Of a stretch of DNA of 64,000 nt, positions 2,411 to 36,197 are shown piece after piece. The notes beneath the pieces were generated by a model. That model ran no database searches, was not told where the DNA came from, and saw nothing but the letters and a program-made list of their open reading frames with translations. The DNA comes from an uncultured Azospirillum sp. (lineage in GTDB: Bacteria > Pseudomonadota > Alphaproteobacteria > RF32 > CAG-239), in NCBI GenBank assembly GCA_947301965.1, contig CAMYUM010000001.1:1-64000 (forward strand), read 5' to 3'. The translations under genes and the position numbers were made by a program. Within the stretch, counting starts at the first letter, position 1; each line of letters begins with the position of its first letter.

Positions 2411-3470
2411 ATTGTTCTGTTTTCTTGGATTTCAGTTGTCCGCAGGCGGCGAGAATATCTTGACCACGAGCAGTGCGTATCGGAGCGGCAAAGCCGTGTT
2501 TTTGCAGTTCCTCGGAAAAAGCATGAATGCGATTGTTGGAACTCGGAGCAAAATTACACCCCGGCCACGGATTGAAACCTATCAGGTTAAATTTGGCATT
2601 AATGCCATATTGCTTCATCAATTTTATCAACTCAGCCGCATGGGCGTAAGTGTCATTAAAGTTATTAAGCATTAGATATTCAAAAGTAATGTATCCGCCG
2701 TTGTTATCCTGATATTGGCGACAGGCCTGCATAAGTTCGGGCAAAGGATATTTTTTGTTAATCGGCATTATTTGTGAGCGCAGTTCATCATTCGGGGCGT
2801 GCAGGCTGATTGCCAGACGAGTGCCGACCTCAGTATCAAAGTTCGGAATATGCGGAACTATGCCCGATGTTGAAACGGTTATACGGCGTTTGGACAGCGC
2901 TATGCCCTCACCGTCAGATATGATTTTAACCGCACGGCAGAGATTGTCATAGTTTTGAAAAGGCTCGCCCATGCCCATAACCACAATATTTGAAAGCATG
3001 CGCGCTTGTTCTTTCAAATTCCATTCTTTATAAACATCACGGGCAACCATAAACTGGGAAACAATTTCACCGGCGGTCAGATTGCGAGTGAGTTTTTGAC
3101 TGCCGGTATGGCAGAATTTGCACCCCATGGCGCACCCGACTTGGGTAGATATGCACACGGCTCCGCGGTCTTCTTCAGGAATATAAACCATTTCAACCCG
3201 TTGGCCGTCTTTGAACTCAAGCAACCACTTGTGAGTACGATCAACGGAAATTTGTTCATCAACAATCTTGGGGCGGGAAAGCTCGAAATAATCAGCCAAT
3301 TTTTCGCGCAGGGGTTTAGATAAATTAGTCATATCGGCAAAATCGGTTTTGCCGTAAAAATACACCCACTGCCAAATTTGTTTGGCGCGAAACGAGGGTT
3401 CTCCAAGAGATTTTAAGTGCTCTTGGAGTTCTTCTTTGGAAAGTCCGATAAGTTCGATTTTATCGCTCAT
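2409..3470 (-). CDS. rlmN: Dual-specificity 23S rRNA (A2503) / tRNA (A37) C2-methyltransferase RlmN
   Basis: RlmN is a radical-SAM enzyme that methylates C2 of A2503 in 23S rRNA and A37 in some tRNAs. The 353-residue protein contains the CxxxCxxC iron-sulfur cluster motif (CAMGCKFC), the downstream GMGEPFQNY and SLHAPND motifs, and a C-terminal ARGQDILAACGQL segment that carries the Cys used for covalent catalysis. I place the start at the ATG at 3470 because it overlaps the upstream stop as ATGA, a typical coupled start; an alternative start three codons earlier (3479) would lie inside the upstream gene. It forms a two-gene operon with the IalB-like gene. Confidence 0.95.
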   Translation of the reverse strand: MSDKIELIGLSKEELQEHLKSLGEPSFRAKQIWQWVYFYGKTDFADMTNLSKPLREKLADYFELSRPKIVDEQISVDRTHKWLLEFKDGQRVEMVYIPEEDRGAVCISTQVGCAMGCKFCHTGSQKLTRNLTAGEIVSQFMVARDVYKEWNLKEQARMLSNIVVMGMGEPFQNYDNLCRAVKIISDGEGIALSKRRITVSTSGIVPHIPNFDTEVGTRLAISLHAPNDELRSQIMPINKKYPLPELMQACRQYQDNNGGYITFEYLMLNNFNDTYAHAAELIKLMKQYGINAKFNLIGFNPWPGCNFAPSSNNRIHAFSEELQKHGFAAPIRTARGQDILAACGQLKSKKTEQ

Positions 3471-13651: not shown

Positions 13652-15496
13652 ATGACACCGAAAACACCAAAAAAAAATAACAAAAAAAACAACGTAAAAA
13701 AGACTACCGCAAAAAAGAAAACTCTTAAACGCGGAAAAAGTAAAAGCAGAAAAAACAACCATAACAGGTGGTGGCTTAAACCCCTGCTGATTTTAATACT
13801 GGCTTTTACTTTAGCCATCGGTGCATATGTGTTTTATTGTTGGCTTACAATGCCCGATATAAAAAAGGCAATTGAACGCACACGATTGCCGGCGACAACC
13901 ATTTTGAACGAAAACGGACAAGAAATCGGATCGTACGGAGGCGTTTATTCCGACATTGTTTATGCCAAAGATTTGCCTCAATATGTTGTAGATGCGGTTA
14001 TTTCAACCGAAGACCGGAGATTTTATTCACATTTCGGATTTGATGTTATAGGTTTTTCGAGAGCTATGGTCGTAAACCTCATTCATCGTCGCTATGTTCA
14101 GGGCGCCAGCACCATTACCCAACAGGTGAGCAAAAATTTGTTCTTGAGTTCTGAAAAAAGCATTCGAAGAAAAGTACAAGAGTTGTTAATGGCTTTTTGG
14201 CTTGAGAAGCATTTTGATAAAGAGCAAATTTTAACTTTGTACCTCAATCGTGTATATATGGGAGCAGGAACCTACGGAATCGAAGCGGCATCACAAAAAT
14301 TTTTCCACAAACCGGCGCATGATATAAATATGATGGAGGCGGCAATTTTAGCTGGGTTATTAAAAGCTCCGGCAAGATATAATCCGTCATCGAATCGTCA
14401 GCGGGCAATCGATCGTGCCAATGTGGTTTTGCAAAATATGGTTAATAACAAAAAAATATCTCCCGCGCAAAAACAACAGGCTTTGAAAATGCCCATCGGA
14501 AACAATAAATACAGTTTCGGAATCGGTAAATATTTCGGCGATTGGGTTTATAACGAAGTAAATGCCTACATCGGCGAGCGCGATACAGATATAAATGTTT
14601 ATACAACTCTTGACGGCAAAATCCAAAAAGCCGCTGAAGAAATTTTGCAGAAAACTATCGCCGCGAATCGAGATAAAAATGTTACTAACGGAGCAATCGT
14701 TGTTATTGATAACGGCGGCGCGGTAAGAGCTATGGTCGGAGGGGTGGATTATAACAAGAGTCAGTTTAATCGGGCAACACAATCTTTGCGTCAGCCGGGG
14801 TCTTCTTTTAAGACATTTGTGTATTTAGCCGCGCTTGAAAACGGGTTTAAGCCTGACGACATTATTGAAGACAAACCGATAGCCGTCGGTAAGTGGAAAC
14901 CGGAAAATTATGATAAAAAATACTATGGAGAAGTAACGTTAAGCGACGCTTTTCGTCGTTCGCTTAATTTGGCAACAATTGATTTGAGTTCAAAATTTTC
15001 AAAGCGAAAAATTATTAACCTGGCACACAAAATGGGTATCAGCACCCCGATTGAAAACAGTGCGGCAATGGCTTTGGGAAGTTCGGAAGTAAAAATTATT
15101 GATATGGCGGTTGCTTATTCAACCATATCTAACGGCGGTTTTGCAAACTGGCCTTATTCTATTACGGAAATTTATACAAAAGACGGTTATAAAATTTATG
15201 AACGCGTAGCTGATGAAAAACAAAGAATCATCAGTCCCGAAAGTGCAGAAAAAATTACAGCAATGTTGCAAAAGGTGGTGGAATCCGGCACCGGAAAAAG
15301 AGCGCAATTACCGTGTTTTGCCGCCGGAAAAACCGGAACATCTCAAGATTATCGCGATGCGTGGTTTGCCGGTTTTGCAAAAGGATATACCGCCGTTGTT
15401 TGGCTGGGTAACGACAATAATTCGCCGATGAAAAATGTCGGCGGAGGAACTTTGCCGGCGCAAATATGGAAAGAACTTATGCAACAAATTGAATAA
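13652..15496 (+). CDS. mrcA: Penicillin-binding protein 1A (bifunctional glycosyltransferase / transpeptidase)
   Basis: This class A PBP polymerises and cross-links peptidoglycan at the outer face of the inner membrane. The 614-residue protein has a very basic cytoplasmic N-terminus (about 45 residues, many Lys), a transmembrane helix (about 48-68), and a GT51 domain with EDRRFYSHFGFD, GASTITQQ, and the RKVQE and YLNRVYMGAGTYGIEAAS motifs. The transpeptidase domain has SSFK (SxxK), SLN (SxN) and KTGTS. The start at 13652 has an AAGAGG ribosome site. It is short for the family, with no large C-terminal extension. It opens a run of envelope genes on the same strand. Confidence 0.92.
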   Translation: MTPKTPKKNNKKNNVKKTTAKKKTLKRGKSKSRKNNHNRWWLKPLLILILAFTLAIGAYVFYCWLTMPDIKKAIERTRLPATTILNENGQEIGSYGGVYSDIVYAKDLPQYVVDAVISTEDRRFYSHFGFDVIGFSRAMVVNLIHRRYVQGASTITQQVSKNLFLSSEKSIRRKVQELLMAFWLEKHFDKEQILTLYLNRVYMGAGTYGIEAASQKFFHKPAHDINMMEAAILAGLLKAPARYNPSSNRQRAIDRANVVLQNMVNNKKISPAQKQQALKMPIGNNKYSFGIGKYFGDWVYNEVNAYIGERDTDINVYTTLDGKIQKAAEEILQKTIAANRDKNVTNGAIVVIDNGGAVRAMVGGVDYNKSQFNRATQSLRQPGSSFKTFVYLAALENGFKPDDIIEDKPIAVGKWKPENYDKKYYGEVTLSDAFRRSLNLATIDLSSKFSKRKIINLAHKMGISTPIENSAAMALGSSEVKIIDMAVAYSTISNGGFANWPYSITEIYTKDGYKIYERVADEKQRIISPESAEKITAMLQKVVESGTGKRAQLPCFAAGKTGTSQDYRDAWFAGFAKGYTAVVWLGNDNNSPMKNVGGGTLPAQIWKELMQQIE

Positions 15497-33420: not shown

Positions 33421-34014
33421 TCACATTTCTTTGCGAGAATTGAGGGCGAGTTGGATTGTGCCTTCGTCCATATAATCAAGCTCGGCACCGACAGGAATAC
33501 CTTGAGCCAGGGTTGTGATTTTTACATTACTGTTTTTCAGTTTTGACACCAAATAGTGTGAGGTTATTTGCCCGTCAATGGTTGCCGGCAGGGCTAACAC
33601 GATTTCGGAAACCGCCCCACTCTCAACACGCATAAAAAGGGAATCGATATTTAAATCTTCGGGTGCTATGCCGTCAAGGGCTGACAAAACACCTCCCAAA
33701 ACATGGTATTGTCCGTGATAGAATCCGGTGCGCTCCATCGCCCATAAATCGGCAACGTCCTGCACAACACAAATTATATTTTTTTCTCTTTTTTCAGATG
33801 AACAGATTGAGCATGGTGATGTGGTATCAAAGTTGCCACAGATTTCACAGCTTTTAATGTTTTCTGCAACATCTTGCAAAGCCTCTATCAACGGCAACAG
33901 AACCGAATCTCTTTTTTTTATGAGATGCAGAACTATACGACGAGCCGATCTTGTGCCTAAAGACGGCAGTTTTGATGCAAGCTTAATCAGTTTTTCAATA
34001 TCTTGACCTGCCAC
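33421..34014 (-). CDS. recR: Recombination protein RecR
   Basis: RecR works with RecF and RecO in gap repair. The 197-residue protein has the helix-hairpin-helix segment (LASKLPSLGTRSARRIVLHLIKK), a four-Cys zinc site (CEICGNFDTTSPCSIC), and the Toprim domain (IICVVQDVADLWAMERTG). I choose GTG at 34014, which gives the typical (M)AGxxIExLI start and has AAAGG 8 bases upstream; a GTG at 34023 overlaps the ribosome site. It follows ybaB and dnaX in the conserved dnaX-ybaB-recR order. Confidence 0.94.
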   Translation of the reverse strand: MAGQDIEKLIKLASKLPSLGTRSARRIVLHLIKKRDSVLLPLIEALQDVAENIKSCEICGNFDTTSPCSICSSEKREKNIICVVQDVADLWAMERTGFYHGQYHVLGGVLSALDGIAPEDLNIDSLFMRVESGAVSEIVLALPATIDGQITSHYLVSKLKNSNVKITTLAQGIPVGAELDYMDEGTIQLALNSRKEM

Positions 34015-34025
34015 AATAATCACCT

Positions 34026-34346
34026 TTAAAACGGAAGTTTCAGACCACCAAGATTTAATCCGCCGGTAACGTCTTTTAAGCCTTCGCTCATCATGTTTTC
34101 AGCTTTGTTTTGTGCGTCATTACAGGCAGCTACTACTAAATCCTCTAAAATATCAACTTCATCGGGATTGAGAAGGGACTTGTCTATTTCGACTTTTTTG
34201 GTTGCCATTTTGCCGGTAACCGTGACCTTGACCATGCCACCACCGCTGACGCCGGTTACTTCACTTTGGGCTAATTTTTCCTGTGCTTCGCTCATCTTTT
34301 TTTGCATCATTTGAGCTTGTTTCATAAGATTTTGCATATTCATCAT
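34026..34346 (-). CDS. ybaB: YbaB/EbfC-family nucleoid-associated protein
   Basis: The 106-residue protein has the helical MKQAQMMQKKMSEAQEKLAQSEVTG region and the central GGGMVKVTVTGKM sheet that define YbaB/EbfC proteins, which dimerise and bind DNA with loose specificity. Its ATG shares a base with the dnaX stop (TGATG), so it is coupled to dnaX, and recR follows 11 bases downstream. Confidence 0.95.
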   Translation of the reverse strand: MMNMQNLMKQAQMMQKKMSEAQEKLAQSEVTGVSGGGMVKVTVTGKMATKKVEIDKSLLNPDEVDILEDLVVAACNDAQNKAENMMSEGLKDVTGGLNLGGLKLPF

Positions 34347-36022
34347 CAGTTAAAGTCCTCGTTTACAAATTCATCATTATTTTCTTCAAAGTTTCCGTTT
34401 TCGCCGGAGGCGACTTTGCGCATTAAGGTTTCAATTTTTGCACCTTTAAACTCATTAAGAATCTCCTTAACCAGCGGGTTTTCAGCAACATTCTTTTTGT
34501 CGGCCTCTTTTTGTGCATTTTCAATATTGGCAATGCTTAAGATTACTTCGCCGGGAATAAGGTCGGTTTTCCATTTTTTACCGGTAGCGGCCTCCAAAAA
34601 CTTATTAATGGTAAGTATAACATCGGCAGAAACTCGTTCTGTTGCCTTAAATTTCATTATTCCGTCAGTAAACTCGACTACCTCAATGTCGTTTTTTACA
34701 GTATAAGCAAGGCGCAGTTGCTTATTTTCCTCAAGATAATGAACAAAGTCATTGATTTTTGCAAACGTTGAAGTTGAAGCCGGCGGCGGTGTACTTGAAA
34801 AAGTCGGTTGAGGAGTTGTTTTTGATACAGAATTGATTGGAGCGGCTACGCTAGATTTTTTTTTTACACTCTCGAGCAGCTCTGCCGGAGTTGGTAAATT
34901 GGCCGAATATGCAATGCGAATCAAAACCATCTCAAGCGCATCTATCGGCACGGGAGCATTTTGGACTTCGTTCAAACCTTTTATGAGCATTTGCCAGATT
35001 TTTGACAATAGCGCTACATTTGTTTTTGCAGACGCTGCGTTAAAAAATTCTCGTTCGGTTTCGGAAAGTTTTTCATCCTTCAGCATTGCCGGTATGAGCA
35101 AAACTTTGGTCAACATGTGGGTTATGTTGATTAAATCGTTCAAAATAGCTGTGGGATTAGCCCCGTTTTTATATACCTCTTGAAGTTTTTGGAGCAAATC
35201 GTTCATGTTGCCGCTGATGAGGTGATTAAAAATTTCAAATGCCTGACCGCGATCTGCCATACCCAGCATTTCTTTAACTATGTCTACTCTGACCTTGCCG
35301 CCGCCAAGCGAAATTGCCTGATCTAACAAAGACAGACCATCGCGAGCAGATCCGTCTGCGGCAGAAGCTATCATATGGAGAGCTTCCTCGTCAGCTTTGA
35401 GTTTTTCTTCAGCGACAATCTTATTAAACAGCTTCATTAAATCATCAATTTGCAGGCGCTGCAAATCGAATCGCTGACACCGAGAAAGAACGGTAATCGG
35501 AACCTTGCGAATCTCGGTTGTGGCAAAAATAAATTTTACATGAGCCGGCGGTTCTTCCAAGGTTTTCAGAAGAGCGTTGAAGGCGTTCTTTGACAGCATA
35601 TGAACTTCATCGATGATATATATTTTATAACGACAATTGGTCGGCTTGTAACGAACGCCGTCTAAAATGTCGCGGATATCATCAACACCGGTACGAGATG
35701 CCGCATCGAGTTCCAAAACATCAATATTGCGTCCGGCGGCAATAGATTTGCAATTTTCACAAATATCACAAGGGTGTGTCGTGGGACCGCCTTTTCCGTC
35801 AGGTCCGATACAGTTAAGCGCTTTGGCAATAAGGCGCGCGGTGGTGGTTTTACCCACACCGCGAATTCCGGTCAAAATATATGCATGGTGCAAGCGATTT
35901 GATTTTATGGCGTTGGTAAGTGTCTGCACCAAAGCATCCTGTCCCAGCAAATCTTCAAAATTTTGCGGACGATACTTTCGCGCTAAAACCACATAATTGT
36001 CTTGTTTTTCTTCTTCTGCCAT
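34346..36022 (-). CDS. dnaX: DNA polymerase III subunit gamma/tau
   Basis: DnaX is the clamp-loader ATPase and links it to DnaB and the core polymerase. The 558-residue full-length (tau) protein has RKYRPQNFEDLLGQDALVQTL, the Walker A GIRGVGKTTTARLIAKAL, a four-Cys zinc module (CIGPDGKGG, then CDICENCKSI), the DEVHMLS Walker B motif, and LSRCQRFDL (SRC). The C-terminal 170 residues are specific to tau. At codons 386-389 a run of ten A residues probably makes a truncated gamma form, described separately. The SRP RNA gene lies just upstream, an association seen in many alphaproteobacteria. Confidence 0.96.
   Translation of the reverse strand: MAEEEKQDNYVVLARKYRPQNFEDLLGQDALVQTLTNAIKSNRLHHAYILTGIRGVGKTTTARLIAKALNCIGPDGKGGPTTHPCDICENCKSIAAGRNIDVLELDAASRTGVDDIRDILDGVRYKPTNCRYKIYIIDEVHMLSKNAFNALLKTLEEPPAHVKFIFATTEIRKVPITVLSRCQRFDLQRLQIDDLMKLFNKIVAEEKLKADEEALHMIASAADGSARDGLSLLDQAISLGGGKVRVDIVKEMLGMADRGQAFEIFNHLISGNMNDLLQKLQEVYKNGANPTAILNDLINITHMLTKVLLIPAMLKDEKLSETEREFFNAASAKTNVALLSKIWQMLIKGLNEVQNAPVPIDALEMVLIRIAYSANLPTPAELLESVKKKSSVAAPINSVSKTTPQPTFSSTPPPASTSTFAKINDFVHYLEENKQLRLAYTVKNDIEVVEFTDGIMKFKATERVSADVILTINKFLEAATGKKWKTDLIPGEVILSIANIENAQKEADKKNVAENPLVKEILNEFKGAKIETLMRKVASGENGNFEENNDEFVNEDFN
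34853..34867 (-). promoter_or_regulatory. Probable slippage site in dnaX giving the gamma form
   Basis: On the coding strand the codons GTA AAA AAA AAA (386-389) form a run of ten A residues. If one A is gained or the ribosome moves back one base, the next codons are ATC TAG; if one A is lost, they are AAT CTA GCG TAG. Both alternative frames therefore stop within four codons, giving proteins of about 390 residues that keep clamp-loader domains I-III. This matches how Thermus (polymerase slippage on A9) and E. coli (-1 frameshift on A6G) make gamma. Confidence 0.65.
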
Positions 36023-36039
36023 AATTCACTCAACTCAAA

Positions 36040-36131
36040 AAGGCGGAGGAACACCGACCTCAGGCTGGTTCGTTACGGCTGCTTTCTTCCGAACCTGACC
36101 GGGTTGGCGAACGCTTGACCCGATGCCCTCC
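36040..36131 (-). ncRNA. ffs: Signal recognition particle RNA (4.5S type)
   Basis: The minus strand contains the conserved SRP RNA core GGTCAGGTTCGGAAGAAAGC and AGCCGTAACG, which forms the Ffh-binding hairpin with its GGAA-type loop. The outer ends pair GGAGG (5') with CCTCC (3') and the 3' end runs into five T residues, a terminator. The length of about 90 bases fits the small bacterial form without an Alu domain. It lies about 18 bases upstream of dnaX. Confidence 0.92.
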
Positions 36132-36197
36132 ATAACAGTAATTCACATAAGGGCAGATTTTGTTCTTAATTTCAAGTAAAAAATCCGCTCTATCCCA

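Follow-up and report, generated by a model that had tools for sequence, protein, structure and literature searches.

The bacterial need for gamma besides tau, both made from dnaX, has long been debated. Several routes to gamma have been described. In Thermus thermophilus, gamma comes from transcriptional slippage on a run of nine A (Larsen et al. 2000, as related in PMC1088944 and PMC5009743). In E. coli, a -1 frameshift takes place on A_AAA_AAG, with an SD-like stimulator about 10 nt upstream and a downstream stem-loop. Antonov et al. 2013 reported split dnaX genes that need recoding for tau, in which the zero frame ends as gamma and a poly-A stretch lies at the gamma/tau boundary; in nine of these genes it has ten A (PMC3711429). 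In Caulobacter crescentus, gamma results from ClpXP processing of DnaX, that is, from proteolysis of tau with no recoding and no poly-A site (PMC5422525). A poly-A frameshift is also found in dnaX of Blochmannia (Gammaproteobacteria). It is situated past the gamma site, within the part that only tau has, and was interpreted as an eroding gene that slippage rescues (PMC3017870).

The dnaX gene described here lies in a window of 64,000 nucleotides, the whole stretch of DNA that was analysed, and belongs to the same class as Caulobacter, with which it would share the making of gamma besides tau. Its sequence-level features are those of Thermus dnaX, namely a coding-strand run of at least nine A, a single ORF for tau, both other frames closed by stops close to the run, and a shorter product without the tau C-terminus, here predicted; the gene would thus work like its Thermus counterpart. 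The Thermus type also comprises mRNA of mixed run length and two proteins at about 1:1. The present gene differs from that of Thermus in phylum, in the position of the run (69% along the gene and after domain III, compared to seven-eighths along), in its ten A (nine in most genera of the family) and in the second run of some lineages. With E. coli it shares a gamma end just after domain III, about two-thirds along the gene, but it has none of the three E. coli signals, and unlike a -1 frameshift site it keeps a +1 stop as well. Compared to the split genes of Antonov et al., the poly-A is similarly placed but the zero frame encodes tau; the relatives that do resemble them are family f7 and two genomes with eleven A. 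The Blochmannia case is a different situation.

The literature searched, which covered few subscription journals, contained no account of dnaX slippage for this class. The slippage mechanism itself is already known from Thermus, and for Alphaproteobacteria only proteolysis was found reported. What is new, and was not contained in an earlier note on this DNA, is the candidate site shared by a whole family, its apparent recurrence across the class, the tandem runs and the reversed layout. The variation at class level (tandem, reversed, replaced) is the more interesting part.

The A10 run of dnaX and its predicted products

The dnaX gene is a 558-codon ORF on the minus strand (34346..36022) for tau, a DNA polymerase III clamp-loader subunit (NCBIfam NF006585, E 1e-216), with Pfam matches to the AAA, lid, domain III and PF12362 C-terminal domains. 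It is followed on the same strand by ybaB/ebfC (34026..34346), which overlaps the last base of the dnaX stop, and by recR (33421..34023), the third gene of a dnaX-ybaB-recR cluster identified by ORF and domain search, while a small SRP RNA gene (36039..36134, minus strand; RF00169, 67.4 bits) lies just upstream of dnaX. Clamp-loader domain III (PF12169, E 1.1e-41) occupies codons 245-385 (34868..35290, minus strand), and solved E. coli gamma chains align with residues 9-380. The tau-only C-terminal domain PF12362 (E 2e-19), absent from gamma, occupies codons 422-531 (34430..34759, minus strand).

The A10 run, a candidate slippage site, consists of the third base of GTA386 and of AAA387-389 (34856..34865, minus strand; T10 on the plus strand) and begins one codon after the end of domain III, in the minus-strand context GAG AGT GTA AAA AAA AAA TCT AGC GTA GCC. 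Gain of one A, or a -1 shift, leads to the TAG at 34851..34853 (minus strand), read as ...AAA ATC TAG, for a predicted gamma of 390 residues ending VKKKI. Loss of one A, or a +1 shift, leads to the TAG at 34846..34848 (minus strand), read as ...AAT CTA GCG TAG, for a predicted gamma of 391 residues ending VKKNLA. These stops lie at +12 in the -1 frame and at +17 in the +1 frame, and gain or loss of two A would end at the same nearby stops, giving 392 and 389 residues, respectively. The computed masses of the short products are 43.2-43.5 kDa (43.3 kDa for both one A more and one A less), and that of tau is 61.9 kDa. The run, the two stops and the domain boundary are thus directly seen. They agree with what the earlier note had claimed from the letters alone, that is, ten A at codons 386-389 at the end of clamp-loader domain III, stops within four codons in both shifted frames giving about 390 residues, and proteins of about 43 and 62 kDa.

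Very probably, selection keeps the A10 run as a programmed site of RNA-polymerase slippage that yields both tau and gamma. The polymerase would add or drop A's on the run, giving dnaX messages of mixed length. Messages with ten A's, or with ten plus or minus three, would be read through to tau. With any other length, translation would end at one of the two nearby stops and yield a gamma of 389-392 residues, which would hold domains I-III without the tau-only C-terminus.

Conservation of the run and of both stops in the family

In order to compare the run across relatives, as the earlier note had asked, dnaX genes were taken from 16 genera of the same family. An uninterrupted run of A9, A10 or A11 was present at the site in all 120 readable genes, and no relative breaks it. 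The statistics were made on 118 of these genes (the count of 120 adds L142 and L147), of which 77 had A9, 39 had A10 and 2 had A11; A9 is the usual length in most genera, while the window has A10. When the protein was held fixed and synonymous codons were redrawn according to each gene's own usage, 28.9±4.1 genes had a run at the site, with a maximum of 42 in 200 trials, compared to the 118 of 118 seen. Elsewhere in the family dnaX genes, outside the site and the linker, no run of nine or more A was seen vs 6.9 expected.

The codon before the run shows the same preference. Valine at this place was GTA in 73 of 73 genes although GTA makes up 14% of valine usage, leucine was TTA in 30 of 30 (22% of usage), and isoleucine was ATA in 14 of 14 (21% of usage). 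On the family tree this codon underwent at least 15 changes, with A as its third base throughout. One relative (L013) has the run shifted by one codon phase, yet still as A10. Together with the A-ending codons, this indicates that the nucleotide run, rather than the peptide, is conserved, and conservation beyond the protein's need is seen directly. The family sequences are related, so that the counts are not independent trials, a concern which the counts of changes on the tree partly answer. The family-wide run is not a matter of chance, and the codon statistics indicate that it is kept by selection.

The stops are maintained as well. Both shifted frames were closed within about 9 codons in 115 of 118 genes vs about 37 under the synonymous null (summed over genera). 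Of 117 relatives, 91 had the -1-frame stop exactly at +12 and 94 had the +1-frame stop at +17. Where a gene holds a stop at that place, changes between TAA, TAG and TGA that kept the stop occurred on the tree at least 20 times in the -1 frame and at least 24 times in the +1 frame. In g3 and g14 the -1 stop has mostly shifted to +15 to +24, and the +1 stop is kept at +14 or +17 in the majority of genes. Taking these two genera and family f40 together, the -1-frame stop is mostly found at a distance of 15-30 nt rather than 12, a point that speaks against programmed slippage. Closure of both frames is needed by slippage in both directions, whereas a pure -1 ribosomal shift needs only one. Well over a hundred species thus keep a predicted gamma-making site through dozens of stop-to-stop changes, and selection that keeps such a candidate site across a clade would be a strong comparative argument for the importance of gamma.

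A second A9 or A10, 32-77 nt past the first, was found in 31 of the 118 genes, carried by 15 of 15 g4, 7 of 7 g7 and 5 of 6 g8 genes and by four single cases; a further g4 gene, L147, also has it. The second run is in another phase (GAA AAA AAA AAN), and both shifted frames mostly close soon after it. The synonymous null for a second run in the linker gave 14.7±2.7 with a maximum of 22, compared to the 31 seen. Glu and Lys abound in the linker, and the evidence for reading the second run as a second slippage site is therefore moderate. The tandem-run genes fall within L016, L021-L025, L074, L078, L085-L087, L091-L099, L102-L104, L111-L120, L126, L134 and L147, although not every number in these ranges carries a second run.

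Probable polymerase slippage and other explanations

If the ribosome were the slipping party, by -1 frameshifting on A_AAA_AAA or by bidirectional sliding on poly-A, gamma would be made from a homogeneous message. Some -1 shifting is possible because the heptamer A_AAA_AAA lies inside every A9 or A10. In favour of ribosomal slipping, most genera have the -1-frame stop nearer to the run than the +1-frame stop, sliding of ribosomes on A runs is known (PMC4363877), and A_AAA_AAG with a -1 stop stands at or near the same place in some other Alphaproteobacteria (L264, L286, L293 and L279). In the window, the -1-frame stop right after the site is present (ATC TAG), but A_AAA_AAG is absent from the run, which is A10 followed by T and contains A_AAA_AAA only as part of itself. 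Upstream of the run, the window has no SD-like motif and the 16 genera have no conserved one, and no unusually stable fold was found in the 70 nt downstream (z +0.23 in the window, mean z -0.24 over the 16 genera). The heptamer, the SD-like stimulator and the stem-loop were thus all missing, which argues against an E. coli-type site and bears out the difference from the E. coli A6G frameshift that the earlier note had drawn. Ribosomal slipping is also hard to reconcile with the maintained +1-frame stop and with a family run that is never shorter than nine A. Among 180 dnaX genes from the whole class, the longest A run at the site was 1-7 or 9-10 and never 8, and this bimodal distribution suggests a length threshold of the kind expected for a polymerase, since six or seven would be enough for a ribosomal heptamer. 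Ribosomes in a reconstituted E. coli system slid strongly at A11 and little at A9 or A10 (PMC4363877), and in E. coli the A_AAA_AAG heptamer is more slippery than A_AAA_AAA (PMC5009743). We consider gamma production by ribosomal slipping improbable. The missing stimulators, the length threshold, the in vitro sliding data and the Thermus precedent point to the polymerase without proving it, and we infer from them that the polymerase slips; the product ratio and a function of gamma are likewise conjectural. The likeness to Thermus transcriptional slippage that the earlier note had suggested is supported by the comparison, given the conserved run, both stops, the missing stimulators and the minimum of nine A.

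Two further explanations leave programmed slippage aside. The run could be merely part of a lysine-rich linker in an AT-rich gene, with no recoding, and gamma, if made, would then come from ClpXP. Lysine is indeed mostly AAA (78%) in the family dnaX genes. A clpP gene was found in the genome, a weak test because ClpP is nearly universal. It makes a route as in Caulobacter (PMC5422525) possible, yet ClpXP would not explain the run. The synonymous resampling (29 of 118 compared to all 118), the invariable GTA before the run and the avoidance of A9 or longer elsewhere already contradict the linker as a full account. In addition, AT-rich members of the class, such as Bartonella and L265, have no long run at the site, whereas a Marinicaulis MAG with a dnaX of 60% GC has A9 there. 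This explanation is therefore very unlikely. The run might otherwise be a contingency tract, in which slippage during DNA replication would leave some subpopulations with full dnaX and others with a truncated form, as two g3 genomes (L145 and L146) with A11 and gamma in the template frame could suggest. Their A11 runs, however, come from single draft genomes, the A9 and A10 lengths are largely constant within clades (the family tree shows 8 changes), and an essential role is expected of dnaX, so that we give phase variation hardly any credence.

Polymerase slippage also agrees with the rarity of long A runs in the genome. Nine-A words were seen 3 times in the window vs 31 expected from dinucleotide shuffles, and the 1.29-Mb assembly has 27 nine-A words in 25 runs of A9/T9 or longer. 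Two runs in the genome reach ten, and only the one in dnaX is deep inside a clear gene, as judged from 3-kb loci in which the coding or non-coding status of some runs is approximate. Runs of nine or more A are thus strongly avoided, and genome-wide avoidance of long A runs is a criterion for a polymerase that is likely to slip on them (PMC1088944). Other A9 runs within long ORFs were noted at L176 (C1:169161 of the same genome), in a recombinase-like ORF that is XerC/D-like by eye, at L183 (C4:71923), inside a 560-codon ORF, and at 13669-13677 of the window, near the start of a 522-codon ORF.

Related sites in other Alphaproteobacteria

Outside the family, A9 or A10 was found at or near the same place in L148, which belongs to the same order, and in L044, L061, L305, L166, L068, L289/L218, L278, L288, L280, L161, L064, L304 and L263. 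By sequence comparison the trait turns up again in about ten further families of Alphaproteobacteria, and it changed at least 8 times on the DnaX tree (FastTree, unrooted, which does not tell gain from loss). The trait is absent from many GC-rich members of the class. In the Marinicaulis MAG (L263; dnaX about 60% GC), the A9, at locus position 3152, is the only run of A8+/T8+ in 4.1 kb.

The layout is reversed in family f7 (L153, genome G266, and L156, genome G038), where an A9 is present, a zero-frame stop follows gamma and PF12362 lies in the -1 frame. This arrangement, with gamma in the zero frame and the tau domain shifted, was also seen in L145 and L146, and not in the window, where the zero frame runs to tau. 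In L145 (G146) and L146 (G149), both of g3, the run is A11, the template frame ends as gamma and tau needs the loss of one A. These runs are possibly natural reversals or homopolymer errors of the draft assemblies.

It is quite conceivable, though we would stop short of favouring it, that gamma made by poly-A slippage is widespread and readily changes its form in Alphaproteobacteria, the mechanism turning over while only the output of gamma and tau is conserved. Under such turnover there would be single runs, tandem runs that raise or buffer the gamma fraction, and the reversed layout, while elsewhere A_AAA_AAG frameshifting or proteolysis by ClpXP would have taken the place of slippage. The question whether gamma is conserved while its mechanism changes can be put to direct comparison among close relatives, and the single, tandem and reversed sites offer natural slippage cassettes for measuring polymerase slippage.

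Split dnaX genes that have the tau domain shifted out of frame and no long A run occur in L149 (G231) and L152 (G183). Their slippery words are AAGGAGACACTAAAAAGGGGGAGTAG, near the end of a 400-codon ORF in L149, and a C5A3 word in L152. In L264 (Bartonella sp. DB5-6), L286, L293 and L279, the -1 stop lies 9-12 nt past the A_AAA_AAG, at or near the domain III boundary, and we regard these as alphaproteobacterial candidates for a dnaX frameshift site of the E. coli type.
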